Part shown: piece after piece, positions 9,149-51,114 of the stretch
How positions within the stretch are numbered: the stretch's first letter is position 1
Layout of the letters: every line of letters starts with the position of its first letter
Source: Acidobacteriota bacterium
Lineage (GTDB): Bacteria; Acidobacteriota; Thermoanaerobaculia; UBA5066
NCBI GenBank assembly: GCA_029567505.1
Contig: JAKPXO010000216.1
Coordinates: forward strand, 1-61,644
Direction: 5' to 3'
Length of the DNA: 61,644 nt
Notes under the pieces: model-generated
What the model was told of the DNA's origin: nothing
What the model saw: only the letters and a program-made list of their open reading frames with translations
Database searches by the model: none
Program-made: the position numbers and the translations under genes

Positions 9149-9272
9149 TCGTCACCTCTCCGCCCGGCGTGCCGCCTGACGCGATGGGATCTCAACGCCC
9201 CCGGGGGGGCGGGTATTCCCGGGGCCGTGAGAAATCGTCGGGGGGCGAGGTGCGACGGGGCCGGCCGGCCTC

Positions 9273-11492
9273 TCAGAGAGAGACCTTCCGGAAGAGGAGC
9301 GTCGCGTCGCCGCCGTTCGAAGGAGCGACCGTCGCGGGGCGGGAGCGGCCGATCGTCGTCGCGGACGGCGGAAGCCCCGGCGTCTCGTCGAGGACGAACG
9401 CTTCGCGTGGCGTGGCCGGGAGCGTCAGCTCCAGGACGAAGCCCTCCGGCGGCGCGCCACGGACGGAGAGCCGGAGCGGCCTTCCGCTCGTGGGCGTCCT
9501 CCGCAGGTAGGGAGGCGGCAGAGGATGCCCCTCCACCCGGATCTCCTCGACGCCGGCGGCGTCGGGGAAGACGAGCCCGAGGCGCGGCGCCCTGCGCGCG
9601 GAAGCGAGGCGGAGGCGGACGCGCCGCCGCCCGTCCGGGAGAGGCGCGGAATCGACGATCGAGAGCTCGGGAAACGCGAGCGACGTGGACGGGAGGGGCG
9701 CCGCGAACGGAGAGGCCTTGCTCGCCCAAGGGTAGAGGCCGGGCGCCTTCTCGAAGCGGCCGGCGGCCGCGACGGCAGGGTGGAGGCGCCCGGAGGCGGG
9801 GCTGTAGGCGAGGCGCGCTTCCGGGCGCCCCTCCTCCTCGACGGCGATCATCGTGCCGTGCTCGGGTTCGTCGGGCGTCGGTTTCGAGAGAGCGAGGGCC
9901 GCGGCGGAAGCGGCGACGAAGAGGGCGGCGAGGACGCCGACCGGCCGGCGCCAGGCGCCACGCGTGCTGTCCACCGGCAGCGTCGCGAGGACGATCCCGA
10001 ACGCCGCGGCGACGACCGGCAGGGCGGCCGGTCCGAGCGCGTCGGGGAGGAAGAGCGCGAGCGGGAGGAGGACGAGGCCGGAGGCCGCGAACGGCAACCA
10101 GGGGGACACCGGCTCCGGAAGCGCGAGCCGCGCGCCGCCGGCGACGAGAGCGGGGGCGACGAGGAGGTAGGAGGTCTCGGGCCACGCGAGCGTGAGGACG
10201 AGCCCGAGGAGCGCGGTCGAGGTCCAGGCCCGCTCCCATGACGCGGCGGCATCGCCCGCGCGGCGCGCCTCGGCGGAGAGGACGGGAAGAGCCGCGAGGA
10301 GCCCCGCCGCGACGGCGGCCGCGAGGGAGGCCCACGGCCTCGGGACGAACGTGACGGGGAAGGCGCCGAGCGCCCGGAGGAGCTGCCAGGCGAGGACGCC
10401 GGAGAGGGCCGCGGCGAAAGGAGCGAGGAACGGGACGAGAGCGCGGATACGCGGCAGGAAGCGTCCGCCGCGGCGGAGGCACGCGAGGCGGACGAGGAGG
10501 AGCGCGAGGAGCGCGAAGGCCGGGGCCGCGGGCAACGGCCAGGCGAGGACGAACGCCCCCGCCACGGAGAAGAAGACGGCGCGGCCGGAGGGCGGTTCGC
10601 GCAGGTCGGTCTCCGCCAGCGCGCGAGCGAGCGCGAGAACGTTCTCCCCCTGGTGCTGGAGGGAGGCCCGCGAGAGGTTCGCGAGGGAGTCCTCGCGCGT
10701 GTGGTAGCGCGCCGCGGAGCCGATGAACGCGAGGTTCAGGCCGGCGAGCCCCTCCCGCTTGTAGACCGTCAGGTCGGTGTCGTTCGGGAGCCGGTCGTAG
10801 ACGAACGCGAAGAGCGAGCTCGTGACGGGGCGCGGGAGGCGGGAGACGGCGCGCCGGACGAGCCACGCGTTGTCGGCGCTCGTCTCGAACAGGAGGCTCG
10901 GGCCGGTCGTCCCGCGCGCTTCGAGGTTCACGACGGCGCCGACGGAGCGCGCGCGGGGGGAGCGTGCGAACAGCTCGGCGCCGAGGAGCCCGTCTTCCTC
11001 GCCGTCGTCGAAGAGGAGGAGGACGGGATTCCGCCGCGGGGCGGCGAGGAGGGCCCGGGCCGCCTCGAGGAGGACGGCGACGCCCGAGCCGTCGTCGCTC
11101 GCTCCCGGGCCCGCGCCGACGGAGTCGGTGTGCGCCGTGAGGAGGACCGCGGGGCCTCCCGTCGTTCCGGGCAGCTCGGCCAGGACGTTCACGAGCCGCG
11201 CACAGGAGCCGTGGGGTGCGCAGGCGAGGCCCTCGTCGACGTCCGGCGTCAGCCCGAGCCGCCGGACCTCGTCGAGAAGGCGTTCCCGGAACGCCGCGTG
11301 CGCCGGGCTGCCGGGCGTCCGCGGCGCCCCGTCTCCGAGGAGGCGCCCGAGGACCTCCGCCGCCCTCGCCGCGGAGAACTCCGTCGCCGCGGCGTCCGCC
11401 CCGCGCGGGGAGGGGGGCGAGGAGCGCCAGGCGCAGACCGCCGCGAGGGCGAGAAGGGCGAGGAGGGCCGTGGGGAGGCGGACGGCACGCAT
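9273..11492 (-). CDS. M28 family zinc aminopeptidase with polytopic membrane C-terminus
   Basis: 739 residues from an ATG whose first 20 residues form a signal anchor. The peptidase domain (about residues 35-310) has all five M28 metal ligands in order: His in TAHTDSV, bridging Asp in GASDDGSG, Glu pair in FDDGEEDG, Asp in LPNDTD and His in ARYHTRED. From about residue 325 to 600 there are eight or nine hydrophobic segments rich in Leu/Ala, then a soluble C-terminal domain. This resembles the ERMP1/Fxna layout rather than the usual secreted bacterial M28 enzyme. The catalytic domain probably lies on the outer face of the inner membrane. It is followed by the AbgT gene after 124 bases and preceded by the C1 protease gene after 26 bases. 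Confidence 0.88.
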   Translation of the reverse strand: MRAVRLPTALLALLALAAVCAWRSSPPSPRGADAAATEFSAARAAEVLGRLLGDGAPRTPGSPAHAAFRERLLDEVRRLGLTPDVDEGLACAPHGSCARLVNVLAELPGTTGGPAVLLTAHTDSVGAGPGASDDGSGVAVLLEAARALLAAPRRNPVLLLFDDGEEDGLLGAELFARSPRARSVGAVVNLEARGTTGPSLLFETSADNAWLVRRAVSRLPRPVTSSLFAFVYDRLPNDTDLTVYKREGLAGLNLAFIGSAARYHTREDSLANLSRASLQHQGENVLALARALAETDLREPPSGRAVFFSVAGAFVLAWPLPAAPAFALLALLLVRLACLRRGGRFLPRIRALVPFLAPFAAALSGVLAWQLLRALGAFPVTFVPRPWASLAAAVAAGLLAALPVLSAEARRAGDAAASWERAWTSTALLGLVLTLAWPETSYLLVAPALVAGGARLALPEPVSPWLPFAASGLVLLPLALFLPDALGPAALPVVAAAFGIVLATLPVDSTRGAWRRPVGVLAALFVAASAAALALSKPTPDEPEHGTMIAVEEEGRPEARLAYSPASGRLHPAVAAAGRFEKAPGLYPWASKASPFAAPLPSTSLAFPELSIVDSAPLPDGRRRVRLRLASARRAPRLGLVFPDAAGVEEIRVEGHPLPPPYLRRTPTSGRPLRLSVRGAPPEGFVLELTLPATPREAFVLDETPGLPPSATTIGRSRPATVAPSNGGDATLLFRKVSL

Positions 11493-35314: not shown

Positions 35315-35383
35315 AGGAAATTTCCGCCTGATACGCTCCGCCGGCCGAGCCCGCGCGGGACGCGGACCGGCGGAGGAGCGGTG

Positions 35384-36262
35384 ATGGCGATCGAGCGCGT
35401 CGGGGTGATCGGGGCGGGTCAGATGGGGGCGGGGATCGCCCACGTGGCGGCGCTGGCGGGGAAGGCCGTCGTCCTCGTCGACGTCGACGCGGCGCTGGCG
35501 GAAAAGGGGCTCGCGGTCGTCCGGAAGAACCTGGGACGCCAGGTCGAGAAGGGAAAGGTCACGGCGGAAGCGGCCGAGGCCGCCCTCGCGCGGATCGCCG
35601 TCTCGGGCGACCTCGCCGCGCTCGCGGACGCCGACCTCGTCGTGGAGGCGATCGTCGAGAACGAGGAGGTCAAACGCGGCCTCTTCTCGCGGCTCGACGC
35701 GCTCCTCCAGCCGGGGGCGATCCTCGCCTCGAACACCTCCTCGATCTCGATCACGCGGCTCGCCGCCGCGACGAAGCGGCCCGAGAGCGTCATCGGGATG
35801 CATTTCATGAACCCGGTCCCGGTCATGCAGCTCGTCGAGGTCATCCGCGGCATCGCGACCTCGGACGGGACGACGGAAGCGGTCGTCGCGGCCGCGAAGG
35901 AGATGGGGAAGGTCCCGGTCGAGTGTCGCGACTTCCCGGGCTTCGTCTCGAACCGGGTCCTGATGCCGATGATCAACGAGGCGGTCTTCGCCGTCTTCGA
36001 GGGGGTCGCCACGCCCGAGGCGGTCGACACCATCATGAAGCTCGGCATGAACCACCCGATGGGGCCGCTCACCCTCGCCGACTTCATCGGCCTCGACACC
36101 TGCCTCGCGATCCTGAACGTCCTTCACCGCGGGCTCGGGGACGACAAGTACCGTCCCTGTCCGCTCCTCGTCCAGATGGTCGATGCCGGCTGGGTCGGCA
36201 GGAAGGCCGGGCGCGGTTTCTACCGCTATTCGGGGCCCGGCGGGGAGAAGGTCGCGGGTTGA
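35384..36262 (+). CDS. 3-hydroxyacyl-CoA dehydrogenase (3-hydroxybutyryl-CoA dehydrogenase type)
   Basis: 292 residues from ATG 35384, spaced well from GGAGGAG; the preceding GTG is only three bases from that site. The NAD fold starts [20 protein letters not shown] (about 6-25). The dehydrogenase signature [17 protein letters not shown] (about 139-155) carries the catalytic His, and the paired Glu/Asn lie in the [22 protein letters not shown] stretch (about 181-202; given in parts). It oxidises L-3-hydroxyacyl-CoA in beta-oxidation or butanoate metabolism. It lies 2 kb upstream of the CoA-ligase/thiolase cluster but is separated from it by a TPR gene and a promoter, so a shared role is only suggested. 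Confidence 0.9.
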
Positions 36263-38339: not shown

Positions 38340-41132
38340 ATGACGAGGCTGACCCGAAACCCCTTCCTTCGCGCCGCGGCTCTCCTCGGGGCCGTTCTCC
38401 TGCCCGCCCTGACCTGGGCCGGCCCCGCACGGGCGCAGACGGCCGACGCGACCGTCGAGGTCGACGTCGTGGACGAGACGGGCGTCGCGCTCCCCGGCGT
38501 TTCGGTCGAGCTGAAGCGCGCCGAGACCGGCTTCGCCCGGACGTCCGTCACGTCCGCCGCGGGCGCCGCCCGCTTCCCGGCGATCCCGCCGGCCGCCGGC
38601 TACGTCGCTCGCGTCGCACTCCAGGGCTTCGAAGCCGTGGAGCAGCCGCTCACGCTCCGAATCGGACAAACGGCGCGGCTGCGCGTCGTCCTCAGGGCGC
38701 AGGCGGTCACCGAGGCGGTGACGGTCGTCGGCGAGGCTCCGCTCGTCGACGTCTACAAGATCGACTCCTCGACGAACATCGTCCCCGAGCAGATCAAGGA
38801 GCTCCCCGTCGCGAACCGCGAGTTCGAAAAGCTCGCGTTCATCGCCCCGGGCGTCCAGCGTGAGCGGGGCGAGTTCCGGTTCGTGACGGGCGGGCCGGTC
38901 ATCGGCTCGGGCGGGAACGCCTCGCAGTCGACGATCCTCGTCGACGGCGTCGACTACACCGACCCGGCCCTCGGCCTCGCGAAGACGCGGGTCTCGCAGG
39001 ACGCGATCTCCGAGTTCCGCGTCGTCAACTCCCGGTTCGACGCCGAGGTGGGCGGCTCCGCCGGCGGCGCCCTCACGGTCCTGACGAAGACCGGGACGAA
39101 CGAGCTGAAGGGCTCGCTCTTCGCCTTCTACCGGGCCGAAGGGCTCCGGGCGCAGGGGGCCCTCGAGCAGGACTCCTCGGTCGACTTCCGGCGTGGCCAG
39201 TACGGGGTCACGCTCGGCGGCCCGATCGTGAGGGACCGGACCCACTTCTTCCTCTCAGGCGAGTACGTCGACGAGGTCCGGCCGACGCTCTACCGGCCGC
39301 AGGGGGCCTTCACGGCCCAGGCCGCCGACCTCGAGGTCCCGATGGACCAGCTCCTCGCGTTCGGCTCGATCACGCACTCCCTGTCCGACTCCCAGACGCT
39401 CCTCGTCAAGGCCGACCTCGAGCGGTACCGCCAGGACAACTTCCGCGTCGGGGGCGTGCAGGACGCCTCCTACGGCCAGGAGCTCCAGCGCGACAACTAC
39501 AACTTCACGGGAGGCCACACCTGGGTCGTCGGCGCCGCGACGACGAACGAGCTCCGGGCCCAGATCGGACACCGGAAGTACTTCGAGCCGACGAACTCCG
39601 ACGCCGTCGCGGACTGGTTCACGAACGGCGTCACCCTCAAGACGGGCGGGAACATCCTCGGCGACCTCCTCGGCGAGGGGGACCAGCTCGAGATCCGCGA
39701 CACCCTCTACCTCCACCTGACCGGGAAGAGCGGGACCCACGACGTGAAGGTCGGCGCCGGCTGGCAGCACGTGAACGACCGCTCGATCATCGACACCTAC
39801 GCGAGCGGCCTCTTCCTCTGGGCGGGAGACACGAAGGCCTTCCCGATCGCCTACGGCTACGGCGTCGGCTCGAGCGACGTCGAGATCACGACGAACCGGC
39901 TCGCCGCGTTCGTCCAGGACGACTGGCGGCCCCTCTCGAACCTGACCGTCAGCGTCGGTCTCCGCTACGACCTCGACACGAACGGGAACAACGAGGGCTT
40001 CACGCACCCGCTCGTCCCCGAGCCGCGCGAGAGGGACACGAACAACGTCCAGCCGCGCCTGGGCCTCTCCTGGGACGTGAAGAAGGACGGCCGCTTCGTC
40101 GCGCGCGCCGGCTGGGGCCTCTTCGTCGGGCGCAACCTGCTCGTCCCCGCGTTCACCGAGCTCCAGCAGAACGGGGTCACGGGCCGCAAGCTCTACACCC
40201 GCGCCAACGGCCTCCTCTACGGCCTCCCGGCCTTCGCCCTCGACCCGAGCAACCCGATGACGACGGGGCTTCCGCTCCCGATCGACATCACGCTCCTCGA
40301 CCAGGAGCTCGTCGCGCCCGAGGCGAGCCAGTTCAGCGCGGGCCTCACCTCGCGGCTCTGGAAGACCGGCCTCTACCTCGACGTCGAAGGGATCTGGGTG
40401 AAGGGGAGGAAGGAGCTGATCGTCCACGACGTCAACTGGAACGGGAACGCGAACCCGACCCGTCCGAACAAGGCCTACAACCAGGTCAACGTCTACTCGA
40501 ACGACGGCGAGTCCGAGTACAAGGCGCTCACGTTCGCGCTGAACGGCAGCCTCAAGGGCGGCCACCTCGTCACGGGCTCGGTCACGTTCTCGAGCAAGCA
40601 CAACCGCTCCGACGACTTCAGCCCCGAGTTCCCGACGGGCTACCCGAGCGACCCCGCGGACCTCCCGAACGAGTGGGGCCGCGGGCGCTCCGCGGAGAGG
40701 ATGCGGTTCGTCCTCTCCGGCGTCTTCCGCCTTCCCTGGCAGCTCACGGTGGCGCCGATCTTCAACTACGGCTCGGGCCAGCCGTGGACCCGCCGCTACG
40801 GCTACGACTTCAACGGCGACGGCAAGACGGGCGACCGGATGCCCGGGGTCGACCGCTTCGGCATGGACGGCCCGGTCTACCGCAGCTTCGACCTGCGGCT
40901 CACGAAGGCGTTCGAGCTCGGCTCGGCCGGCACCCTCGAGCTCGTGGCCGAGGCGTTCAACCTCTTCGACTCCACGAACTACGACGTCGCCTCGATCGAC
41001 GGCGCCGAGTTCCTGAGCGGGCCGACCCTCGCCAACCCGGCGGCGGCGGCGGTCGCGAACCCGAACTACGGAAAGCCGAGCGCGACGCTCCCGTCGCGGG
41101 AGTTCCAGCTCGGCCTCCGCTTCGCCTTCTAG
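38340..41132 (+). CDS. TonB-dependent outer-membrane receptor (Oar-like)
   Basis: 930 residues with a signal peptide (1-32). Residues 38-115 form a carboxypeptidase-regulatory-like domain (VEVDVVDETGVALPGVSVEL). The plug follows (ILVDGVDYTDP near 199-209, then AEVGGSAGGALTVLTKTGTN), with beta-barrel sequence to the end. The protein ends in a Phe (RFAF), the outer-membrane insertion signal. It probably imports a large or scarce ligand across the outer membrane; the Oar-like N-terminus is common in Acidobacteriota and Bacteroidota. No TonB box is easily seen at the N-terminus. The gene has its own promoter and operator and a strong terminator, so it forms a unit beside the CoA-ligase operon. 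Confidence 0.9.
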   Translation: MTRLTRNPFLRAAALLGAVLLPALTWAGPARAQTADATVEVDVVDETGVALPGVSVELKRAETGFARTSVTSAAGAARFPAIPPAAGYVARVALQGFEAVEQPLTLRIGQTARLRVVLRAQAVTEAVTVVGEAPLVDVYKIDSSTNIVPEQIKELPVANREFEKLAFIAPGVQRERGEFRFVTGGPVIGSGGNASQSTILVDGVDYTDPALGLAKTRVSQDAISEFRVVNSRFDAEVGGSAGGALTVLTKTGTNELKGSLFAFYRAEGLRAQGALEQDSSVDFRRGQYGVTLGGPIVRDRTHFFLSGEYVDEVRPTLYRPQGAFTAQAADLEVPMDQLLAFGSITHSLSDSQTLLVKADLERYRQDNFRVGGVQDASYGQELQRDNYNFTGGHTWVVGAATTNELRAQIGHRKYFEPTNSDAVADWFTNGVTLKTGGNILGDLLGEGDQLEIRDTLYLHLTGKSGTHDVKVGAGWQHVNDRSIIDTYASGLFLWAGDTKAFPIAYGYGVGSSDVEITTNRLAAFVQDDWRPLSNLTVSVGLRYDLDTNGNNEGFTHPLVPEPRERDTNNVQPRLGLSWDVKKDGRFVARAGWGLFVGRNLLVPAFTELQQNGVTGRKLYTRANGLLYGLPAFALDPSNPMTTGLPLPIDITLLDQELVAPEASQFSAGLTSRLWKTGLYLDVEGIWVKGRKELIVHDVNWNGNANPTRPNKAYNQVNVYSNDGESEYKALTFALNGSLKGGHLVTGSVTFSSKHNRSDDFSPEFPTGYPSDPADLPNEWGRGRSAERMRFVLSGVFRLPWQLTVAPIFNYGSGQPWTRRYGYDFNGDGKTGDRMPGVDRFGMDGPVYRSFDLRLTKAFELGSAGTLELVAEAFNLFDSTNYDVASIDGAEFLSGPTLANPAAAAVANPNYGKPSATLPSREFQLGLRFAF

Positions 41133-41250: not shown

Positions 41251-42033
41251 ATGAGCATCGAAACGGGACTCGCCGGACGGTCCGTCGTCGTCACAGGGGC
41301 GGCCGCCGGGATCGGAAAGGCGACGGCCCTGCGATTCGCGAAAGAGGGGGCGAAGGTCGCGGCGTGGGACGTCGCGGACGCCGCCGCGCTCGCCGACGAG
41401 CTGAAGGCCGCGGGCGCCGCCGACGCGTTCACGGCGAAGGTGAACGTCGCCGACGCCGCCTCGGTGGAGGCGGCGGTCGCGGACGTCGTCGCGAGGTGGG
41501 GGCGGATCGACGTCCTCGTCAACAACGCCGGGATCGTCCGGGACGCCCAGCTCGTCAAGTACAAGGACGGGGCCGTGCTGGCGACGATGACGGACGAGCA
41601 GTGGGACGCGGTCATCGGCGTGAACCTGAAGGGTGTCTTCCTCTGCACCCGCGCGGTGACGCCGCACATGATCGCGGCCGGGGGCGGCGTCGTCCTGAAC
41701 GCCTCCTCCGTCGTCGGCCTCTACGGCAACTTCGGCCAGACGAACTACGTCGCCACGAAGGCCGGCGTCGTCGGGATGACGAAGACCTGGGCACGCGAGC
41801 TCGGGAGGTTCCGGATCCGCGTCAACACCGTCTGCCCCGGGTTCGTCGCCACCGAGATCCTGAAGGCGATGCCGCAGAAGGTGCTCGACGGAATGGTCGC
41901 CCACACGCCGATCGGCCGGATGGGGGAGCCCGACGACATCGCGAACGCCTACGTCTGGCTCGCCTCCGACCAGGCGACCTTCGTCCACGGCGCCGTCCTC
42001 TCGGTCGACGGCGGCCTCGTGACGGGGACGTAG
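41251..42033 (+). CDS. Short-chain dehydrogenase/reductase (FabG-like)
   Basis: 260 residues from ATG 41251 with a GGGAGGT site eight bases upstream. The cofactor site is TGAAAGIGKAT (about 16-26), NNAG is near residue 91, catalytic Ser in NASSVVG (near 151) and the YxxxK pair in TNYVATK (near 168). The wording is that of 3-oxoacyl-ACP/CoA reductases or 3-hydroxyacyl-CoA dehydrogenases. It is the first gene of the plus-strand cluster; two bases separate it from the KAS III-like gene. Probably reduces or oxidises a hydroxy/keto group on the cluster's substrate. Confidence 0.88.
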   Translation: MSIETGLAGRSVVVTGAAAGIGKATALRFAKEGAKVAAWDVADAAALADELKAAGAADAFTAKVNVADAASVEAAVADVVARWGRIDVLVNNAGIVRDAQLVKYKDGAVLATMTDEQWDAVIGVNLKGVFLCTRAVTPHMIAAGGGVVLNASSVVGLYGNFGQTNYVATKAGVVGMTKTWARELGRFRIRVNTVCPGFVATEILKAMPQKVLDGMVAHTPIGRMGEPDDIANAYVWLASDQATFVHGAVLSVDGGLVTGT

Positions 42034-42035
42034 CG

Positions 42036-43025
42036 ATGCCCCGCGTCGCGCGCATCGTCTCGACGGCCCGGTACCTCCCGCCGATCGAGGTCCCGAACGA
42101 GGTCCTGAAGCCGCGCTGGCCCCAGTTCCCCGACTTCGTCGACAAGATGGAGGCCTCGAGCGGAATCCGGACCCGCTTCTACGCCCCCGAGGACCAGGCG
42201 ACGTCCGACGTCGCCCTCCCGGCCGCGAAGCTCGCCCTCGAGCGGGCCGGCCTGACGCCGCTCGACCTCGACCTCATCATTCTCGGCACCGACTCGCCCG
42301 ACTACGTCACCCCCGCGACCTCGGTCGTCCTCCAGGGGAAGCTCGGCGCGAAGAACGCCGGGACCTTCGACGTCGGCTGCGCTTGCGCGTCGTTCCCGAC
42401 CGGGATCGCCGTCGGCTCGGGCCTCATCGCCGCGAACCCGGCGCTGAAGAACGTCCTCGTCCTGGGCGTCTACCTCATGCACAAGCTCGCCGACCCGAAC
42501 GACCCCATGGTCTTCTTCTACGGTGACGGCGCCGGCGCCGCGGTCCTGCAAGGGGGCGACGAGCCCGGCTTCCTGAACTCCGCGATGCAGGCGGGCGGGG
42601 AGTACGCGCAGTGCTGGGGCATCTTCGCGGGCGGCACCGCCGAGCCGGCGACCGTCGAGGCCGTGCAGGCCGGCCGGACGACGGTGAAAATGGTCGAGAA
42701 GTATCCCGCCGAGATCAACCACGAGGGGTGGCCGCGCCTCGTGAGGCGCCTGTCCGCGGAGGGAGGGTTCGCCCTCTCCGAGATCGACCAGCTCATCTTC
42801 ACGCAGGTGCGAAAGCCTTCCATCGAGCTCGTCATGAACGACCTCGGGCTTCCGGTCGAGAAGGCCCACACGATCATGGAGAAGTGGGGCTACACCGGAT
42901 CGGCCTGCATCCCGATGGCGCTCGACGACGCGATCGAGCAGGGGAAGGTGAAGAAGGGGGACCTCGTCGTCATGATCGGCTCCGGCGTGGGGTACAACCA
43001 GGCCGGCGTCGCGATCCGGATGTGA
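42036..43025 (+). CDS. KAS III (FabH)-like enzyme lacking the usual catalytic His and Asn
   Basis: 329 residues, thiolase fold. The nucleophile region reads DVGCACASFPTGI, so the Cys aligned with the FabH catalytic Cys is Cys117, with a second Cys at 115. Alignment by eye places Thr256 (in LIFTQVRK) where FabH has His in PHQAN, and Tyr286 (in KWGYTGSA) where FabH has Asn in GNTSAA. Both are essential for decarboxylating condensation, so ordinary KAS III chemistry is unlikely. A Cys-only acyl-transferase, thioesterase-like or C-C/C-O bond-forming role is possible. It sits between an SDR and an alpha/beta hydrolase. Family membership is clear; reaction is not. Confidence 0.8.
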   Translation: MPRVARIVSTARYLPPIEVPNEVLKPRWPQFPDFVDKMEASSGIRTRFYAPEDQATSDVALPAAKLALERAGLTPLDLDLIILGTDSPDYVTPATSVVLQGKLGAKNAGTFDVGCACASFPTGIAVGSGLIAANPALKNVLVLGVYLMHKLADPNDPMVFFYGDGAGAAVLQGGDEPGFLNSAMQAGGEYAQCWGIFAGGTAEPATVEAVQAGRTTVKMVEKYPAEINHEGWPRLVRRLSAEGGFALSEIDQLIFTQVRKPSIELVMNDLGLPVEKAHTIMEKWGYTGSACIPMALDDAIEQGKVKKGDLVVMIGSGVGYNQAGVAIRM

Positions 43026-43059: not shown

Positions 43060-44004
43060 GTGAACCGACCCATGAAGCTCCTCCTCGCTGCGGCCGCTCT
43101 CCTCGTCCTCGCGGCGATCGTCTTCATCCTCTGGGCGCGGCTGCGGCCCCTCGCGGCGTACGCCGCGGCGGGGCGTCGCGCGCTCGCGAAGGCGGGTCTC
43201 GAGACGGCCCGCGTCCCGTCGCCCGCGGGCGAGCAGACGTACTTCCGCGGCGGGAGCGGCCCGGTCGTCGTCCTCCTCCACGGCGCGGGCGACCAGGCCT
43301 CCGCCTGGTCTCTCGTCGCCCCGAAGCTCCTTCCCGGACGGACGCTCGTCGTCCCCGACCTCGCGGGTCACGGCGCGAGCGCGCCGGAGAAGGGCGCGAT
43401 CTCGGTGCCGATGCTCCTCTCCGGCCTCTCGGCCGTCCTCGACGCGGCGGCTCCCGGCGGGAAGGTGACGATCGTCGGCAACTCCCTCGGCGCCTGGCTC
43501 GCCTGCCTCTGGGCGAAGGAGCACCCCGAGCGCGTCGAGCGCCTCGTCCTCGTCAACGGCGGCCCGCTGAAGCACGCGGCGGAGGGGATCACGCTCCTCC
43601 CGAAGGACCGGGCCGAGGCTCGGGCCGCCGTCGAGAAGCTCCGCGACCCGGGCTCGATCCGCGTCCCCGACTTCGTCCTCGACGACGTCGTGAGGCAGGC
43701 GGCGACGGGCCCCCTCGCGCGGCTCGCGGCGACGAGCGGCGCGATGGAGCCGCACGTCCTCGACGGGAAGCTGGGAGGACTCGACGTGCCGGTCGACCTC
43801 CTCTGGGGCGCTTCCGACCAGCTCCTGCCGCTCTCCTACGCGGAGAGGATGCGCGTCGAGCTGCCGCGCGCCCGCGTGACCGAGCTGCCGCGGTGCGGGC
43901 ACGTCCCGCAGCAGGAGTGCCCGGCCGCCTTCGCGGCCGCCCTCGGGAAGCTCCTCGACGGTCCGCCGCCGGAGAGGGCCGCGGCCACGCCGGAGGTCCC
44001 GTGA
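43060..44004 (+). CDS. Membrane-anchored alpha/beta hydrolase
   Basis: 314 residues from a GTG with a GGAGGTGAG site. One N-terminal membrane helix (about 6-27) anchors the enzyme, probably facing the periplasm. The catalytic domain has HGAGDQASAW (about 75-84), nucleophile elbow GNSLGAW (Ser near 144), Asp in WGASDQLLP (near 250) and His in RCGHVPQQE (near 280). It is probably an esterase or lactonase, perhaps acting on the ligand brought in by the receptor. The stop overlaps the GTG of the CoA ligase. Confidence 0.83.
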   Translation: MNRPMKLLLAAAALLVLAAIVFILWARLRPLAAYAAAGRRALAKAGLETARVPSPAGEQTYFRGGSGPVVVLLHGAGDQASAWSLVAPKLLPGRTLVVPDLAGHGASAPEKGAISVPMLLSGLSAVLDAAAPGGKVTIVGNSLGAWLACLWAKEHPERVERLVLVNGGPLKHAAEGITLLPKDRAEARAAVEKLRDPGSIRVPDFVLDDVVRQAATGPLARLAATSGAMEPHVLDGKLGGLDVPVDLLWGASDQLLPLSYAERMRVELPRARVTELPRCGHVPQQECPAAFAAALGKLLDGPPPERAAATPEVP

Positions 44005-45542
44005 TCCACGCCGACGTCCTCGGCGAGCGAGCGCGCCTCTCGCCGGAGAAGTGCGCCCTCGTCTTCGTCCCGACGGGGGAGCGGTTCACGTACCGCGAGC
44101 TGGACGCCCGCGCGACACGGGTCGCGGCGTTCCTCCGCGACGGGCTGGGCCTGATGAAGGGGGACCGAGTCGCCCTTCTCGCCCACAATCGGGTCGAGTA
44201 CGTCGACCTCTTCTTCGCCGCGGCGAAGGCGGGGCTCGTCCTCGTCCCGCTCGGGACGCGCATGACGCCGCACGAGCTCGCCTTCATCGTGCGGAACGCC
44301 GACGTCTCGGCGCTCGTCTACGGGGGCGAGTTCGCCGAGACCGTCGCAGCGCTCCGCGCCGAGGCGGCGGTGCCGCGGAGGATCGCCCTCGACGCGCCCT
44401 CCGCGGAGGGAGACCTGTCGCTCGCGGCGGAGCTCGCCGCGCTCCCCGAGGCGCCCTTCGTGCGGACGCGCTGCGGCGGCGAGGACCTCCACCTCCTCCT
44501 CTACACGAGCGGCACGACGGGCAAGCCCAAGGGGGTCATGGTCCCGCACCGGATGACGTCCTGGAACGCCTGGAACACGGCCCTCTGCTGGGGGCTGACG
44601 GAGCACGACGTCAGCCCGGTCTTCACGCCGCTCTACCACGCGGGCGGGCTCGGCGCGTTCCTCCTCCCGGTCCTCGCGGCGGGAGGGACCGTCGTCCTCC
44701 ACGCGGGCTTCGAAGCGGCGGAGGTCTGGGCCACCGTGACGAGGGAGCGCTGCACCGTCGTCCTCGGCGTCCCGACGATCTGGAAGCTGCTCCTCGAGCA
44801 CCCGTCGTTCGAGCGGGCCGACCTCTCCTCGATCCGCTGGCTCATCAGCGGCGGCGCGCCGCTCCCGCTCTACCTCATCGAGGCCTACCAGGCGCGCGGC
44901 ATCGTCTTCAAGCAGGGGTACGGCCTGACCGAGGTCGGCGTGAACTGCTTCGCGATGTCGGTCGAGGAGTCGGTCGCGAAGAAGGGGTCGATCGGGAGGC
45001 CGCTCATGATGACCGACGCGAAGCTCGTCGACGAGTCGGGCGCCGAGGTGACGGCCGGCGAGGTGGGGGAGCTCTGCCTCCGCGGGCCGCACGTCTCGAG
45101 GGGCTACTGGATGAACCCCGCGGCGACGGCCGCCGCCCTCGACGACGAGGGCTTCTTCCACACGGGCGACCTCGCCCGAAAGGACGCCGACGGCTTCTTC
45201 ACGATCGCGGGGCGCCGGAAGGACATGCTCATCTCCGGCGGCGTGAACGTCTACCCGGCCGAGATCGAGGGGGAGCTCCTCCTCCACCCGACCGTCATGG
45301 ACGCCGCGGTCGTCGGCGTTCCCGACCCGACGTGGGGCGAGGTCGGCGTCGCCTTCGTCGTCCTCCGCCCGTGCGAGAGTGCCACGAAGGCCGAGCTCCT
45401 CGCCTTCGCCGAGTCGCGCCTCGCCCGCTACAAGCTCCCGAAGGACGTCGTCTTCGTCGAGGCGCTCCCGCGGACGGCCTACGGGAAGGTCGTCAAAGGG
45501 GAGCTCCGCGACGCATACCTCGCGGGCCGGGGCGCCGCGTGA
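44001..45542 (+). CDS. Acyl-CoA synthetase (AMP-forming, fatty-acid/aryl CoA ligase type)
   Basis: 513 residues from GTG, overlapping the previous stop as GTGA. The AMP-binding motif is YTSGTTGKPKGVMV (about 171-184), the second GYGLTEVG (about 310-317), the A8 linker TGDLARKDADGF (about 393-404) and the C-terminal catalytic Lys in PRTAYGKVVKGEL (about 493-505). It activates a carboxylic acid to its CoA thioester using ATP. The pocket residues do not let me choose between medium/long-chain fatty acids, aryl or terpenoid acids. With a thiolase and an SDR alongside, breakdown through a CoA pathway is likely. Confidence 0.9.
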   Translation: MIHADVLGERARLSPEKCALVFVPTGERFTYRELDARATRVAAFLRDGLGLMKGDRVALLAHNRVEYVDLFFAAAKAGLVLVPLGTRMTPHELAFIVRNADVSALVYGGEFAETVAALRAEAAVPRRIALDAPSAEGDLSLAAELAALPEAPFVRTRCGGEDLHLLLYTSGTTGKPKGVMVPHRMTSWNAWNTALCWGLTEHDVSPVFTPLYHAGGLGAFLLPVLAAGGTVVLHAGFEAAEVWATVTRERCTVVLGVPTIWKLLLEHPSFERADLSSIRWLISGGAPLPLYLIEAYQARGIVFKQGYGLTEVGVNCFAMSVEESVAKKGSIGRPLMMTDAKLVDESGAEVTAGEVGELCLRGPHVSRGYWMNPAATAAALDDEGFFHTGDLARKDADGFFTIAGRRKDMLISGGVNVYPAEIEGELLLHPTVMDAAVVGVPDPTWGEVGVAFVVLRPCESATKAELLAFAESRLARYKLPKDVVFVEALPRTAYGKVVKGELRDAYLAGRGAA

Positions 45543-46384
45543 GCTCCACCGCTCTCCTCGCGCACCAGGTCGACGGGGAGGGCGAGCCGCTCCTCCTCCT
45601 GAACGGCGGGATGATGAGCTTCACGGCGTGGGACGCCTACGTCCCGCCTCTCGCGGCGAAGCACCGGGTCATCCGGTGCGACCTGCGCGGGATGCTCCGC
45701 TCGCCGGGCGCCCGTCCCGAAGGTTTCCCCGGCCACGCGGAAGACCTCCTCGCCCTTCTCGACCACCTCGGAGTCTCGAGCGCCCACGTCGCGGGGACGA
45801 GCTACGGCGCCTTCGCTGGCCTCCACCTCGCCGCCCTTGCCCCGGACCGAGTCGCCTCCCTCGTCGCGATGACCGTCGCCGACCGCGTGTCGGCCGAGAT
45901 GTGGGCCGAGGCGGAACGGATGGCCGTCGCCTGCCGGGAGGCGCTCGCGGGGGGCTCGCGAGAGAAGGTCTACGACCTCGTCTCGGCCTTCGCCTTCTCG
46001 GAGGAATGGGCCGAGGCGCACGCGGAGGAGATCGCGGCCCGCCGCGCCGCGGTTTCCTTCCTGCCCGACTCCTGGTTCTCCGGGCTGGCCTCGCTCCTCT
46101 CGGCGCTCGAGGGGCTCGACGCGAGGCCGCTCCTCCCGCGCGTGACCTGCCCCGTCCTCGTCCTCCTCGCGGTGGGAGACCGCGCGATGCCGCGCCCCTG
46201 GGGCGAGTCGCTCGTGGCGGCCCTGCCGCGCGGGGAGCTCGCCGTCGTCCCCGGCTGCGGTCACGGCCTCGTCGTCGAGAAGCCCCGCGAGACGCTCGCC
46301 CATCTCCTCGCCTTCCTCGCCCGGCACCCGCTCCCGGTCGAGGCCCCGACCCGCCAGCCCGAGCGGAACGGAGGAACGCCGTGA
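45539..46384 (+). CDS. Alpha/beta hydrolase
   Basis: 281 residues, starting at GTG in a GTGA overlap with the CoA ligase. The fold opens LLLLNGGMMSFTAWD (about 18-32); the nucleophile elbow is GTSYGAFAG (Ser near 92), with Asp in AVGDRAMP (near 219) and His in GCGHGLV (near 243). It resembles the third hydrolase in this cluster in order and in the NGG/NGL-x-AW opening, so the two may be duplicates with different targets. No signal peptide; cytoplasmic. Substrate unknown; a CoA-thioester, ester or C-C-bond hydrolase is possible. Confidence 0.82.
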   Translation: MSSTALLAHQVDGEGEPLLLLNGGMMSFTAWDAYVPPLAAKHRVIRCDLRGMLRSPGARPEGFPGHAEDLLALLDHLGVSSAHVAGTSYGAFAGLHLAALAPDRVASLVAMTVADRVSAEMWAEAERMAVACREALAGGSREKVYDLVSAFAFSEEWAEAHAEEIAARRAAVSFLPDSWFSGLASLLSALEGLDARPLLPRVTCPVLVLLAVGDRAMPRPWGESLVAALPRGELAVVPGCGHGLVVEKPRETLAHLLAFLARHPLPVEAPTRQPERNGGTP

Positions 46385-47586
46385 AGCCGATCTACATCGC
46401 CGCCTACCAGCAGTCGAAGTTCGGGAAGCTCCTCGGCGCGACCGTGCCCGAGATCATCCGGACGGCCGCCGAGGAGACGTGCCGCTCCGTGAAGGCCGAA
46501 GCGTCCGCCGTGGACGTCGCCACGATCGGCGCCGTCTGCAACCTGACGCTCAACGAGCAGGGGCTCCTCTCCGGGCTCCTCGCGATGACGCCCGGCCTCG
46601 ACGGCAAGCCGATCGAAAGCGTCGAGAACGCCTGCGCCACGGGCGGGCAGGCGATCCTCGCTGTCGCGCAGAAGCTGATGCTCGGCGACGGCGACGTCGG
46701 CCTCGCCGTCGGCTTCGAGAAGATGCGCGACGCCGACGGGAAGATGGACGGCAAGCTCGTCGGGAAGGTCCTCGGCCTCTACTCGCACCCCGACGAGCGC
46801 CCCGGAAAGACGTTCGTCTTCCCGCACCTCTTCGCCGAGGTGATGAAGGCCTACATGGACGAGTGGGGCGCGACCGAGGAGGACCTCGCCACGATCGCCG
46901 TCACGGAGTACGAGAACGCCCGGAAGAACCCGTTCGCGCAGATGCAGAAGAACGAGGTGACCCTCGAGACGGCGATGAAGATCGAGGGGATCAACCGCTA
47001 CGTCGTCGAGGGGCTCCCACTCAAGACCTACGACGCCTCGCAGATCTCCGACGGCTGGGCCGGGATGCTCCTCGCGACGGAGGACGGGCTCGCGAGGCTC
47101 GGCGTCGCGAAGGCCGACTGCGTCCGCCTTGCGGGCTGGGGCCAGGCGACCGACCCGCTGAAGAAGGAGGGGCGCGACGTCCTCCGTCCGAAGGCGGCGA
47201 ACGCCGCGATGGCCGCGGCCTACCGGCGCGCCGGGCTGACGCCGTCGGACGTGAACGTCGCCGAGGTCCACGACTGCTTCAGCGTCATGGGCGCGATCGG
47301 CGCCGAGGTGATCGGCAAGGCCGAGCCGGGCAAGGGCGCCCGCTACTGGAGCGAGGGGAAGGCGCGCGTCGCGGGGGAGTGCGGCATCAACACCTCCGGA
47401 GGCCTCATCGCCAAGGGGCACCCGATCGGCGCCACCGGCATCGCGATGGTCGGCTGGTGCGCCTGGCAGCTCCTCGGGAAGGTGCCGAAGGAGCTCCAGG
47501 TCGCGAACGCGCGCGCGGCGGCGACCTTCAACATCGGCGGGCCGGTCTGCGCGTCGGTCTGCACGGTACTCACCCCGGCCTCCTGA
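46381..47586 (+). CDS. SCPx-type thiolase
   Basis: 401 residues starting at GTG in a GTGA overlap with the hydrolase. The nucleophile is Cys in ESVENACATGGQA (near residue 86). A His in EVHDCFSVMGA (near 300) and another in AKGHPIGATGIAM (near 347) complete the visible site. The typical second Cys (CxGGG) of classical thiolases is replaced by FNIGG near residue 384, as in SCPx-like enzymes. Such thiolases often need a DUF35 OB-fold partner encoded next to them, and none is present here. It most likely cleaves or forms a 3-ketoacyl-CoA. Confidence 0.88.
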   Translation: MKPIYIAAYQQSKFGKLLGATVPEIIRTAAEETCRSVKAEASAVDVATIGAVCNLTLNEQGLLSGLLAMTPGLDGKPIESVENACATGGQAILAVAQKLMLGDGDVGLAVGFEKMRDADGKMDGKLVGKVLGLYSHPDERPGKTFVFPHLFAEVMKAYMDEWGATEEDLATIAVTEYENARKNPFAQMQKNEVTLETAMKIEGINRYVVEGLPLKTYDASQISDGWAGMLLATEDGLARLGVAKADCVRLAGWGQATDPLKKEGRDVLRPKAANAAMAAAYRRAGLTPSDVNVAEVHDCFSVMGAIGAEVIGKAEPGKGARYWSEGKARVAGECGINTSGGLIAKGHPIGATGIAMVGWCAWQLLGKVPKELQVANARAAATFNIGGPVCASVCTVLTPAS

Positions 47587-47644
47587 CGGAGCCGGGAGGG
47601 CTGACCCCGGCGGCCGGACGCGGCCGGGAGTGCGGGAGGACCCG

Positions 47645-48502
47645 ATGGGCGAGATCGTCCCCGACCGGGAGGGGTTCCTCGAGGTCGGCGGTCACCGGAT
47701 CCGGTGGGAGTTCGTCGGCAAGGGCGACAAGGAGACCGTCTGCCTCCTCAACGGCCTCGCGATGCACACCCGCGCCTGGTACGGGGTCCTCCCGCGCCTC
47801 CTCGACGCGTACGACGTCGTCCTCTACGACTACCTCGGCCAGGGGCAGTCCTCGGCTCCCGACGAACCGTACTCGATCCCGGAGTCCGCCGGGTACCTCC
47901 CGCGGGTGCTCGACGCCCTCGGGATCGAGAAGGCCCACGCGGTCGGCGTCTCGTACGGCGGCTTCGTCGCGGCCGAGGCCGCGCGCCTCTTCCCCGAGCG
48001 GCTCCACACGCTGACGCTCTCGGGGATCCTCCTCTCGCACGAGGAGCTCTTCTCGATGTACCAGGAGATCTCCCTCCGCTTCTACCGCGGCGGGCCGGAG
48101 GTCTTCGAGCTCTACACGCACTACATGTATGAGAAGATCTTCGGCGAGGCGTTCGTCGCCGCCATGAAGGAGAGCCTCCCGGCGCTCCGCGGCCGGTTCC
48201 ACGACCGGTACCGGGGCCAGACGCACGCGCTCATCCGCCTCACGCGCGCGCAGGACCCGTTCTTCGCGGCGCTCGACGGGAACCTCGCGGGCTACGCGGC
48301 GTTCCCGGAACCGGTCCTCGTCGTGCCGGGCGCCGAGGACCGGACGATCCCGCCGTGGGTCCAGCGGAAGCTCCTCTCCGTCTTCCGCGACGCGCGTTGG
48401 GAGCCGATCGAGGGCTCCGGCCACGTCGTCTACCTCGAGAAGCCCGACGCCTTCTTCGGCGTTCTCCGGCGGTTCCTCGCGGCGAAGTCGACGTCGTACT
48501 GA
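47645..48502 (+). CDS. Alpha/beta hydrolase
   Basis: 285 residues from ATG 47645, five bases after GGGAGGA; an upstream GTG would bury this site. The fold opens CLLNGLAMHTRAWY (about 33-46), nucleophile elbow GVSYGGFVAAE (Ser near 104), Asp in GAEDRTIPP (near 236) and His in GSGHVVYLEKP (near 263). It is related in layout to the hydrolase at 45539-46384. It is the last plus-strand gene of the cluster, 58 bases after the thiolase. Likely cytoplasmic; substrate unknown. Confidence 0.82.
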   Translation: MGEIVPDREGFLEVGGHRIRWEFVGKGDKETVCLLNGLAMHTRAWYGVLPRLLDAYDVVLYDYLGQGQSSAPDEPYSIPESAGYLPRVLDALGIEKAHAVGVSYGGFVAAEAARLFPERLHTLTLSGILLSHEELFSMYQEISLRFYRGGPEVFELYTHYMYEKIFGEAFVAAMKESLPALRGRFHDRYRGQTHALIRLTRAQDPFFAALDGNLAGYAAFPEPVLVVPGAEDRTIPPWVQRKLLSVFRDARWEPIEGSGHVVYLEKPDAFFGVLRRFLAAKSTSY

Positions 48503-48529: not shown

Positions 48530-50083
48530 TCAGAGGTCCCCGATCGCGGCGACGAGGCGCGTCCAGAGCGCGCCGCCGCCGAGGCCGTTCGTCAGGACGA
48601 CGATCCCGGTCCCACGCGACGGCGAGAGCTGGCCGTAGCACCGGAAGCCGGTCTGGTTCGCGCCGCTGTGGTAGATCACGTCGCCGCCGGGGGTCTCGTT
48701 GATCCCCCAGCCGAGCCCCCAGAAGACCGCTCCGCCGCGCGCTCGCCCGGGGCGCTCGATCGGGTCGCGCGCGTCGGCGCGGACGGCGCGGCGGAGCATC
48801 GCGTCGACCCCGGCGCGCGAGAGCGCCTTCGGCCCGAAGGCCTCCGGGTCGAGGAGAGCCGTCAGGACGCGGGCGTAGTCGGGGGCGGTCGTCACGAGGG
48901 TGTAGGCCGCGTTCGCGTGGCGGTAGCGCGCCCGCGCCTTCGGCTTCCCGTCTTCGTCGTGCCCGGTCGCGAGCGCGGCGTCGAGCTCGGGGGCCCAGGC
49001 GAACGACGCCCGCTCCATTCCGAGCGGGGCGAAGAGCGCGTCCTTCGCGTACGCCTCGAGCGGCGCGCCCGTTACCTTCTCGACGGCGCGCTGGAGGAGG
49101 AAGAACGCCTCGCCCGAGTAGCCGAAGCGGGAGCCCGGCGGGAAGAGGACGGGGAGCGGACCGTCGCGCTCCTCGCCTCCCGGGCGCCAGTTCGGGAGGC
49201 CCGAGGTGTGGGAAAGGACCATCCGCGGCGTGATCCGCGTCAGCTCCGGCTGGCCGGGGACGGCCGGGAGGTCGACGACCTCGGCGAGCGGCCGGTCGAG
49301 GTCGAGCTTTCCGTCCTCGACGAGCTTCAGCGCGACGTACGCGAAGGCCGGCTTCGTCATCGAGGCGACCTCGAAGAGCGTCGTCGTCGTCGCGGGAGCG
49401 CCGGTCTTCGCGTCGGCGACGCCCCAGGCCTTCGAGAAGGCCACCGTCCGGTCCTTCACGAGCGCGACCGAAACCGCGGGAACGTGGTGCTCCCGCATCA
49501 GGATCGGAACGAGCCGCTCCACGACCGCGACCGTCGCCTCCCACGACGGGGCGCGGAGCCACGCAGCGGGGTCGATCCTCTCGAGCGCGAGGGTCGCACC
49601 GCGCCGGACGTCCTCGTCGCGGTCCCAGAGGGCGTCGCGGAGGGCGGGAAGCGCGGGGGAGGCGCCGCGGCCGGCGGCGCCGAGGGCGCTCGCGGCGGTC
49701 CAGCGGACGACCGCCTTCGGGTTGGAGAGCGCCTGCGCGAGCGCGGGGACGGCCTCGGTCGCCCTCGGCCCGAGCTTTCCGAGCGCGACGGCGGCTCCGA
49801 CGCAAACCTCCTCGCGGGCGTCGCCGAGCGCGCGGACGAGCGCCGGCACGCTCGCCGCGCCGATCCGCGCGAGGGCGTCGGCCGCCGCGCCCGCGACGAA
49901 GGGGTCGGCGTCGGCGAGGGCCGCGACGAGCGGCTCGACGGCCCCGGCGCCGCCCGCGGCGAGGGAGGCGGCGGCGCGCTCGCGCGCCCCGGGGTCGGGG
50001 TCGGCGAGCCCCGCCGGCGCCTGCGCGGCGACGGGACGGGCGAGGAGCGCGAGGAGGAGCGGGACGAGGAGGCGCCGGTTCAT
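48530..50083 (-). CDS. Secreted HEAT-repeat/beta-lactamase-fold serine hydrolase
   Basis: 517 residues: a signal peptide (1-21), HEAT-like repeats rich in Ala/Leu (about 25-165; for example AVEPLVAALADADPFVAGAA and SVPALVRALGDAREEV), then a class-C beta-lactamase/serine hydrolase domain (about 175-510). Its catalytic motifs are SMTK (S-x-x-K, near 227-230), YSG (Y-x-N position, near 310-312) and HSGAN (near 471-475). Y-S-G in place of Y-x-N is unusual but known in esterase-type members. It could cut D-amino-acid peptides or esters outside the cell. The ATG overlaps the stop of the D-cysteine desulfhydrase-like gene. Confidence 0.83.
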   Translation of the reverse strand: MNRRLLVPLLLALLARPVAAQAPAGLADPDPGARERAAASLAAGGAGAVEPLVAALADADPFVAGAAADALARIGAASVPALVRALGDAREEVCVGAAVALGKLGPRATEAVPALAQALSNPKAVVRWTAASALGAAGRGASPALPALRDALWDRDEDVRRGATLALERIDPAAWLRAPSWEATVAVVERLVPILMREHHVPAVSVALVKDRTVAFSKAWGVADAKTGAPATTTTLFEVASMTKPAFAYVALKLVEDGKLDLDRPLAEVVDLPAVPGQPELTRITPRMVLSHTSGLPNWRPGGEERDGPLPVLFPPGSRFGYSGEAFFLLQRAVEKVTGAPLEAYAKDALFAPLGMERASFAWAPELDAALATGHDEDGKPKARARYRHANAAYTLVTTAPDYARVLTALLDPEAFGPKALSRAGVDAMLRRAVRADARDPIERPGRARGGAVFWGLGWGINETPGGDVIYHSGANQTGFRCYGQLSPSRGTGIVVLTNGLGGGALWTRLVAAIGDL

Positions 50084-51114
50084 CGCGCGCCCCCGGGGAG
50101 GACCCGCGCGAAGGGCGCGGCGTCGTCGAATGCGTCGTCGAAGGAGAAGAGGATCGGGAGCCCTCCCGTGTGGAGGAAGACGACCGGGACCGCGGGGTCG
50201 AGGAGGCCCGCGCGGGCGAGGCCGAAGAGGCCCGCCATCGCCTTGCCGGTGTAGACGGGGTCGAGGAGGAGCCCTTCGAGCCGCGCGCTCTCGAGGATCG
50301 CCTCTCGCCCCGTCTCCGTCGCGACGCCGTACTCGCCGCGGAGCGCGTCGTGCGCCTCGACCTCGGAGGGGCCGAGAACGGGCTCGAGGCCGAGGAGGCG
50401 CGCGCTGCCGGCCGCGAGCTCGGCCGCCCGCGCGGCGATCGGGCCGGCCGCGCGCGAGACGCTGATCCCGATGACACGCGCGGCCGGGAGGAAGAGCCTC
50501 GCGCCGAGCGCGAGGCCGGCGAGCGTCCCGCACGACCCGACGGCCGCGACGAGCTGGACCTTCCCCGGGCCGAGCTGCGCGGCGAGCTCGCGCATCGCCG
50601 CGACGTAGCCGAGCGCGCCGTGCGGCGTGCTTCCCCCGAGCGGGACCTGGAACGGCTGCCGCCCCGCGGCGCGCAGCTCCGCGGCCCACGACTCCATCGC
50701 TGCCGCGAGGGAGTCGTTCGCGTCGTCGTCGACGAGGTAGCGCGTCTCGGCGCCGTAGAGCGCGCCGAGGAGGAGGTTCCCCTTCCGCCGGGACACGTCG
50801 GGGCCGCCGAGGACGAGCTTCGCGTCGAGGCCGAGGCGCCGCGCAGCGGCGGCCGTCAGGACGGCGTGGTTCGACTGGGTGCCGCCGACGGTGAGGACGG
50901 TGTCGTATTCCCCGGTCGTCGCGGGCGCGAGGTCGTATTCCAGCTTGCGGGCCTTGTTCCCGCCCATCGCGAGTCCGGTCAGGTCGTCGCGCTTGACGAG
51001 GAGGCGTGCGAGGCCGAGGTGCGCCGCGAGGCGCGGGGCGTCCTGCACGGGGGTCGGAAGCGCCGCGAGCGGCACCCGGCGGACGGCATCGAGACGATCT
51101 CCCACGAGGCTCAT
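50080..51114 (-). CDS. D-cysteine desulfhydrase/ACC deaminase-like PLP enzyme
   Basis: 344 residues. The PLP-binding Lys lies in GGNKARKLEY (near residue 51-60), and the phosphate/substrate loop GGTQSNHA (about 76-83) is diagnostic for the D-cysteine desulfhydrase and ACC deaminase group. GSCGTLAGLALG is the phosphate-binding cup (about 189-200). It probably makes pyruvate, ammonia and sulphide from D-cysteine or deaminates a D-amino acid or ACC. Its stop overlaps the hydrolase start by four bases; a D-amino-acid-releasing hydrolase followed by this enzyme would make sense. The exact substrate is not shown. Confidence 0.85.
   Translation of the reverse strand: MSLVGDRLDAVRRVPLAALPTPVQDAPRLAAHLGLARLLVKRDDLTGLAMGGNKARKLEYDLAPATTGEYDTVLTVGGTQSNHAVLTAAAARRLGLDAKLVLGGPDVSRRKGNLLLGALYGAETRYLVDDDANDSLAAAMESWAAELRAAGRQPFQVPLGGSTPHGALGYVAAMRELAAQLGPGKVQLVAAVGSCGTLAGLALGARLFLPAARVIGISVSRAAGPIAARAAELAAGSARLLGLEPVLGPSEVEAHDALRGEYGVATETGREAILESARLEGLLLDPVYTGKAMAGLFGLARAGLLDPAVPVVFLHTGGLPILFSFDDAFDDAAPFARVLPGGAR

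Follow-up and report, generated by a model that had tools for sequence, protein, structure and literature searches.

The gene at positions 42036..43025 (plus strand) of the window, as we call the whole 61,644-nucleotide stretch of DNA that was analyzed, encodes a KAS III-like enzyme of 329 residues (P0001) in which the counterpart of the FabH catalytic triad is Cys117-Thr256-Tyr286 (with Cys291), and which belongs to a conserved family separate from FabH. KAS III enzymes, which are antibacterial targets, are a textbook case of Cys-His-Asn catalysis, and the His and Asn of FabH serve malonyl decarboxylation. The family of P0001 has kept the cysteine and exchanged both helper residues, and judged from these residues and its gene neighborhood it probably carries out a different chemistry. 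The Thr/Tyr exchange is a trait of a whole, so far unnamed, conserved family and not the oddity of one protein; a literature search with narrow terms and partial journal coverage found no description of a KAS III of this kind. If our reading is correct, the KAS III branch has been rebuilt for another reaction, as have the steroid aldolases in the SCP2-thiolase branch. What is new relative to the initial annotation of this gene is the conservation of the exchange throughout the family, the replacement of FabH Ser279 by a cysteine (C291) and the restriction of a further cysteine, C115, to a subfamily.

Fold and Family Assignment of P0001

The open reading frame begins with an ATG 2 bases past the stop codon of the preceding gene. 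The initial annotation had called its product KAS III-like, and both KAS III domains were indeed found in the 329-residue translation, PF08545 (ACP_syn_III) at 55.0 bits and PF08541 (ACP_syn_III_C) at 80.9 bits, each above its Pfam gathering threshold. An AlphaFold2 model of P0001, with a 31-row alignment as input, had a pLDDT of 91.0 and a pTM of 0.91; the structure nearest to it was the FabH chain 4dfe_A (Z 45.1, rmsd 1.7, 319 residues), and FabH-type, BioZ, PqsD and PqsBC chains stood at the top among the matches listed. Both Pfam domains and the fold match place P0001 in the KAS III fold (thiolase superfamily). The HMMER alignment of P0001 to solved FabHs was also best for 4dfe (3.3e-44). 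With FabH (4dfe, 1hn9, 6x7r) the protein shares the whole fold, the nucleophilic Cys, the GDGAGA motif, the Q of HQAN and the general length, but its family differs in having Thr for His, Tyr for Asn and Cys for Ser279, in the loss of the ACP-docking Arg from most of its core, and in its operon.

Sixteen NCBIfam models matched P0001, and none of the 16 reached its curated cut-off. The best was PRK09352, at 182.1 bits against a cut-off of 249, while the FabH model TIGR00747 gave 165.1 against 292.1 and PRK06840 148.3 against 315. The HMG-CoA synthase models also stayed below their cut-offs (PRK04262, 46.5 against 244; TIGR00748, 31.9 against 353; TIGR01835, 20.5 against 360), and none of three more distant family members that we scanned reached an NCBIfam cut-off either. 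The thiolase signatures (a second catalytic Cys in CxG, NEAF/HDCF, and GHP) are absent from P0001 and present in the thiolase of its operon.

Active-Site Residues

The catalytic triad of FabH is Cys-His-Asn, as given in PMC11801535. In the HMMER alignment to solved FabHs, C117 of P0001 (codon 42384..42386; this and all codons below are on the plus strand) falls on the catalytic Cys, while T256 (42801..42803) takes the place of the HQAN His and Y286 (42891..42893) that of the GNTSAA Asn, with no gaps in these segments. MAFFT alignments of the family concur, so that the three assignments made in the initial annotation, a retained Cys117 with Thr256 for His and Tyr286 for Asn, are confirmed by two methods.

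To place these residues in the family we compared 138 distinct KAS III sequences, namely 112 with Thr/Tyr, 22 with His/Asn (drawn from the same or related genomes) and four of the PRK06840 type; duplicates and fragments of 250 residues or fewer (e.g., L033) are omitted from these sets. The nucleophile C117 is present in 112/112 family members, and T256 and Y286 occur together in 112/112, against 0/22 of the His/Asn sequences, and are therefore not the product of chance or sequencing error. C291 (codon 42906..42908), five residues after Y286, is the counterpart of FabH Ser279 and is found in 111/112 members and 0/22 His/Asn sequences. Four further residues, D86, Y146, N228 and W232, are each present in 112/112 and 0/22, respectively, and H278 in 108/112 and 0/22. 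The second cysteine noted earlier, C115 (codon 42378..42380), is present, but it is a subfamily trait outside the core change: it occurs in all 98 members with at least 60% identity (the core group) and in 8 of the 14 below 60% (the deep members).

Two positions bear on the partner of the enzyme. Position 261, which we take to be the equivalent of the ACP-docking Arg249 of E. coli FabH, is Arg in 22/22 FabH-type sequences, while the four commonest residues in the core group (n = 98) are Pro (86), Gly (6), Ala (4) and Tyr (1); Arg persists in 4 of the 14 deep members. The loss of this residue from most of the core group argues against ACP as the partner. Position 41, presumably the equivalent of the CoA-contacting Arg36 of FabH, is Arg in 22/22 FabH-type sequences and S in 79, G in 9, A in 8 and R in 2 of the 98 core members. 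Its replacement in most members weakens the case for a simple FabH-like CoA site, and this contact thus lends no support to the use of CoA.

It had been foreseen that a better alignment might restore the His and Asn at other positions. The FabH columns do hold Thr and Tyr, but H278 and N228 are conserved in the family, absent from FabH and located off the catalytic columns. Together with D86 (like N228 in every member, and like both absent from the 22 FabH-type sequences) they could in principle take over the His/Asn role in an ordinary malonyl-dependent KAS III. We consider such an enzyme highly unlikely, as the FabH columns that hold Thr and Tyr are ungapped, the ACP-docking Arg is mostly gone from the core group, and hydrolase, ligase and thiolase genes accompany the family but were found at 0/17 FabH loci. 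In addition, a second KAS III match, less similar to P0001, is present in 6/6 genomes checked besides that of the window, which itself also has an ordinary FabH.

The gene appears to be maintained: dN/dS values against four close orthologs were 0.08, 0.22, 0.25 and 0.34, and this range together with the family-wide conservation rules out a decayed FabH, a pseudogene or chance. When the trait columns were left out of the alignment, the His/Asn sequences formed one side of a branch in the resulting tree (SH-aLRT 98), for which reason the Thr/Tyr change looks like a single old event. The deep rows of this tree require two changes, so that the choice of root decides whether the family forms a grade or a clade; L125 and L003 are long branches.

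Distribution of the Family

The 112 members are about 35–100% identical and come from Acidobacteriota, scattered Pseudomonadota, Myxococcota and one Chloroflexota plasmid. Among 60 genomes (including that of the window) 28 match at E < 1e-90; the match in one of these, G038, lies in pieces at contig ends, and all 27 full matches carry C115, C117, T256, Q257, H278, Y286, T287 and G288. A scan of genome contigs gave 208 relatives, 80 of which were kept, from Acidobacteriota, Burkholderiales, Ectothiorhodospiraceae and Myxococcota; one family member comes from a cultured organism, Geothrix fermentans DSM 14018 (L060). Within the phylum of the window 24 of 199 genomes, its own counted, match at E < 1e-60. 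The class of the Ectothiorhodospiraceae member gave 8 of 274 genomes (starting genome counted), and the order of one Burkholderiales member gave 1 of 300, that one being the starting genome itself. A plasmid search matched 159 records, of which only one exceeded 60% identity, the Chloroflexota plasmid at 65.4%. That record annotates its family member as "ketoacyl-ACP synthase III," and we believe that the annotation of family proteins to fatty acid synthesis is probably wrong. At one locus (L047) two family genes lie in tandem (8796–9788 and 10001–10990), each with C115, C117, T256 and Y286, and it is possible that the two copies form a heterodimer.

Gene Neighborhood

The genes around P0001, from the receptor to the third hydrolase, are on the plus strand and follow the order TonB-type receptor, SDR, KAS, hydrolase, acyl-CoA ligase, hydrolase, thiolase, hydrolase. 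The first is a TonB-dependent-receptor-like outer-membrane protein of 930 residues (38340..41132), recognized by sight from its translation, a homolog of which precedes the SDR gene in many loci. It is followed by a FabG-like short-chain dehydrogenase (SDR; 41251..42033), P0001, alpha/beta hydrolase 1 (43060..44004), an AMP-binding acyl-CoA ligase (44001..45542) whose GTG start, assigned from homologs, gives a 4-base overlap with the preceding stop codon, alpha/beta hydrolase 2 (45539..46384), an SCP2-type thiolase (46381..47586) whose Cys, HDCF and GHP motifs are all intact, and alpha/beta hydrolase 3 (47645..48502). Several genes of the operon overlap by 4 bases according to their coordinates. 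Upstream lies a 3-hydroxybutyryl-CoA dehydrogenase gene (35381..36262, plus strand), also found upstream of the KAS gene in L037, L089 and L107. The initial annotation had described this neighborhood as degradative, a view upheld by the thiolase, hydroxyacyl-CoA dehydrogenase, acyl-CoA ligase, alpha/beta hydrolases and TonB-type receptor of the window and, in other lineages, by a Liv-type ABC importer and a CoA-transferase. The three hydrolases (43060–48502) are distinct from each other and all nearest to PcaD/acetoin-type models, far below the cut-offs. Beyond them, on the minus strand (48530–50689), is an ORF whose translation, judged by sight, resembles a secreted protein in which HEAT-like repeats precede a domain like that of serine beta-lactamases.

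The gene order of the window was seen again in many of the 80 loci. Relatives of 40–48% identity have a constant trio of hydrolase, KAS and ligase, to which a receptor and a TetR regulator are often added. Holophagaceae loci, like L089 and L107, have a porin, an ABC importer of the Liv type and a butyryl/acetate-type CoA-transferase in place of the receptor and ligase, with varying completeness. As L089 and L107 share the upstream dehydrogenase and TPR genes of the window, the setting has changed around a constant enzyme. There are two settings with one logic, a TonB receptor with a ligase in the window and elsewhere a Liv-type ABC importer together with a butyryl/acetate-type CoA-transferase, thiolase and hydrolase, and the neighborhood suggests that acids or esters are taken up, activated and cleaved.

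Of the 112 distinct members, 58 had flanks of about 6 kb, and we counted partner genes within this distance of them and of 17 FabH-type loci, using profiles built from the same neighborhoods and loci that are related by descent; Fisher values for these counts take no account of that relatedness. An alpha/beta hydrolase was present at 46/58 family loci and 0/17 FabH loci, an acyl-CoA ligase at 41/58 and 0/17, a thiolase at 28/58 and 0/17, a TonB-type receptor at 35/58 and 1/17, and a TetR regulator at 36/58 and 0/17. The SDR (41/58 against 17/17 FabH loci, where it is FabG-like) was uninformative, and the low count for the CoA-transferase (3/58) arises at least partly because that gene is often more than 6 kb away. 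In their hydrolase, ligase and thiolase genes most family loci differ from the fab gene neighborhood of FabH, and one locus (L130) had none of the hydrolase, ligase, thiolase, receptor, TetR and SDR-type partners of the count. Two small proteins were also noticed: a conserved 210-residue protein encoded next to the KAS gene and an alpha/beta hydrolase gene (L062, 8150–8782, with no Pfam or NCBIfam match; L128, 7289–7921, with no Pfam match), and a protein of about 105 residues between the thiolase and SDR genes of two Holophagaceae-type loci (L066, 12318–12636; L149, 6348–6665).

The Chloroflexota plasmid carries a compact set of SDR, KAS, CoA-transferase, small protein, thiolase, DUF35 protein (a Zn-ribbon OB-fold), hydrolase and ABC importer genes. 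The union of KAS, thiolase and DUF35 protein in one operon calls to mind the thiolase-HMG-CoA synthase-DUF35 complexes described in PMC12329534, by analogy with which the KAS-like protein would have no catalytic role and serve the thiolase as a partner or scaffold. We judge this extremely unlikely, since the retained C117 and a pocket that is changed but invariant argue for catalysis, no DUF35 gene was seen beside the thiolase in the window or in L066, and many loci are without a nearby thiolase.

The trio of relatives at 40–48% identity invites comparison with biosynthetic systems. PqsE, PqsD and PqsA are of the same three classes (hydrolase, ketosynthase, ligase), and the trio likewise matches the enzyme classes of OleB, OleA and OleC, to which the window adds an SDR. 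P0001 resembles OleA in being a thiolase-fold enzyme beside an alpha/beta hydrolase, an AMP ligase and an SDR, and in that no malonyl decarboxylation is expected of it, and an OleA/PqsD-like condensing enzyme could work with the ligase and hydrolase to build a small lipid, beta-lactone or signal. PqsD, however, keeps Cys-His-Asn. We take the Glu117-Pro column of OleA to correspond, by way of FabH, to loop 84–93 of P0001; this loop reads GTDSPDYVTP, and the residue before the loop Pro is Thr or Ser in 112/112 members (97 T and 1 S in the core, 13 S and 1 T in the deep group). The family therefore has no Glu-Pro at the site where, according to PMC7064751, the Glu117 of OleA precedes a Pro and is the general base supplied by the other subunit. 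The window also differs from oleABCD in its ligase, nearest to general acyl-CoA ligases, in its FabG-like SDR and in the presence of import genes; among the matches listed for these two proteins there was no OleC- or OleD-named model, and with the base absent as well we rejected an oleABCD cluster in spite of its matching classes. Import and degradation are also what the TonB receptor, Liv importer, CoA-transferase and thiolase speak for, and we regard a condensing role as quite unlikely.

Possible Reactions of the Family

The initial annotation had proposed a non-decarboxylating acyl transfer, hydrolysis or condensation; we likewise expect no decarboxylation, but this list is too broad to single out one reaction. 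We tentatively favor an enzyme that would form an acyl-Cys117 intermediate and act without malonyl decarboxylation, in a thiolase-type Claisen cleavage of CoA esters with Tyr286 as acid/base, a reading to which we give somewhat less than an even chance. The ligase or CoA-transferase encoded next door would provide an acyl-CoA, from which an acyl-thioester would form on Cys117, to be resolved without the decarboxylation of malonyl-ACP. The favored reaction would be cleavage of a beta-keto (or beta-hydroxy) thioester, this direction and substrate class being suppositions of ours, with Tyr286 as the putative general acid/base, and its likely setting a pathway that imports, activates and cleaves an acid or ester. 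Decarboxylation of the FabH type is predicted to be unlikely in an enzyme with fixed Thr and Tyr; the retention of C117 argues for an acyl-enzyme; and the import genes, dehydrogenases and thiolase favor CoA-linked C-C chemistry in breakdown.

A precedent within the thiolase superfamily is provided by the steroid aldolases CtSal and TcLtp2, in which, according to PMC12329534, a Tyr and a Cys have replaced the thiolase catalytic residues and taken over for C-C cleavage in CoA esters. These Sal/Ltp2 enzymes differ from P0001 in belonging to the SCP2-thiolase branch and not to KAS III, and CtSal, in the same source, has Gly for the nucleophilic Cys. A profile comparison with the thiolases of the operon aligned the N-terminal half only (columns 57–153), and for this reason the correspondence of T256/Y286 to NEAF/GHP, with Y286 on the His of GHP, remains an assumption.

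Several observations stand against the favored cleavage. The canonical thiolase of the same operon could perform it alone, and thiolases are near fewer than half of the loci counted, the hydrolase and ligase being more general partners that would be just as compatible with acyl transfer or with biosynthesis. Three gammaproteobacterial members instead adjoin a pyruvate dehydrogenase operon (aceE, aceF, lpd; L105, 1463–10996; L126, 8826–16092; L129, 9191–18304).

The strongest rival, ahead of the weaker OleA-like condensation, is a non-decarboxylating acyl transfer in the manner of CerJ and ChlB3, in which Cys117 would move an acyl group from CoA to an alcohol, amine, thiol or water. In PMC9573744 CerJ and ChlB3 are described as KAS III-fold acyltransferases with Cys-His-Asp that do not decarboxylate, and the five-residue spacing of His296 and Asp301 of ChlB3 equals that of Y286 and C291. 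The fold, the Cys nucleophile and this spacing are shared, and a ligase that would make acyl-CoA is adjacent. P0001, however, does not have Cys-His-Asp, its family presenting Cys-Tyr-Cys in columns that we equate from the spacing, with Tyr and Cys in place of His and Asp. The sequence match to ChlB3 is weak (5e-08), and CerJ and ChlB3 belong to antibiotic clusters with carrier proteins, whereas the family is found in uptake/CoA operons with no acceptor, carrier protein or product cluster evident. Acyl transfer of this kind is in our view on the unlikely side, if by no means negligible.

A broader proposal would be that a Cys-Thr-Tyr(-Cys) center, possibly with a carboxylate from the partner subunit (D86), forms or cleaves C-C bonds of acyl-CoA substrates with no decarboxylation of malonyl groups, and that the family defines a widespread but uncharacterized route by which Acidobacteriota degrade an ester or a hydroxy/keto acid. 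This would be a new catalytic type in the KAS III branch; we consider it possible yet doubtful. The operon offers a direct and testable way into a catabolic pathway, as yet unknown, of the poorly cultured Acidobacteriota.

A second KAS III-like protein with an unusual active site accompanies the family in Holophagaceae. Genes of the PRK06840 type ("3-oxoacyl-ACP synthase") lie close to the family member, or immediately in front of it, in L060 (8917–9957), L148 (2331–3347), L094 and L108, and the L060 protein, whose gene directly precedes the Geothrix fermentans family gene, scores 415 bits against the PRK06840 cut-off of 315, far above P0001. These proteins resemble P0001 in being KAS III-like with a non-canonical active site, but have His at the Y286 column of P0001 (in a comparison that included one further row, a fragment), and thus represent another non-canonical arrangement.
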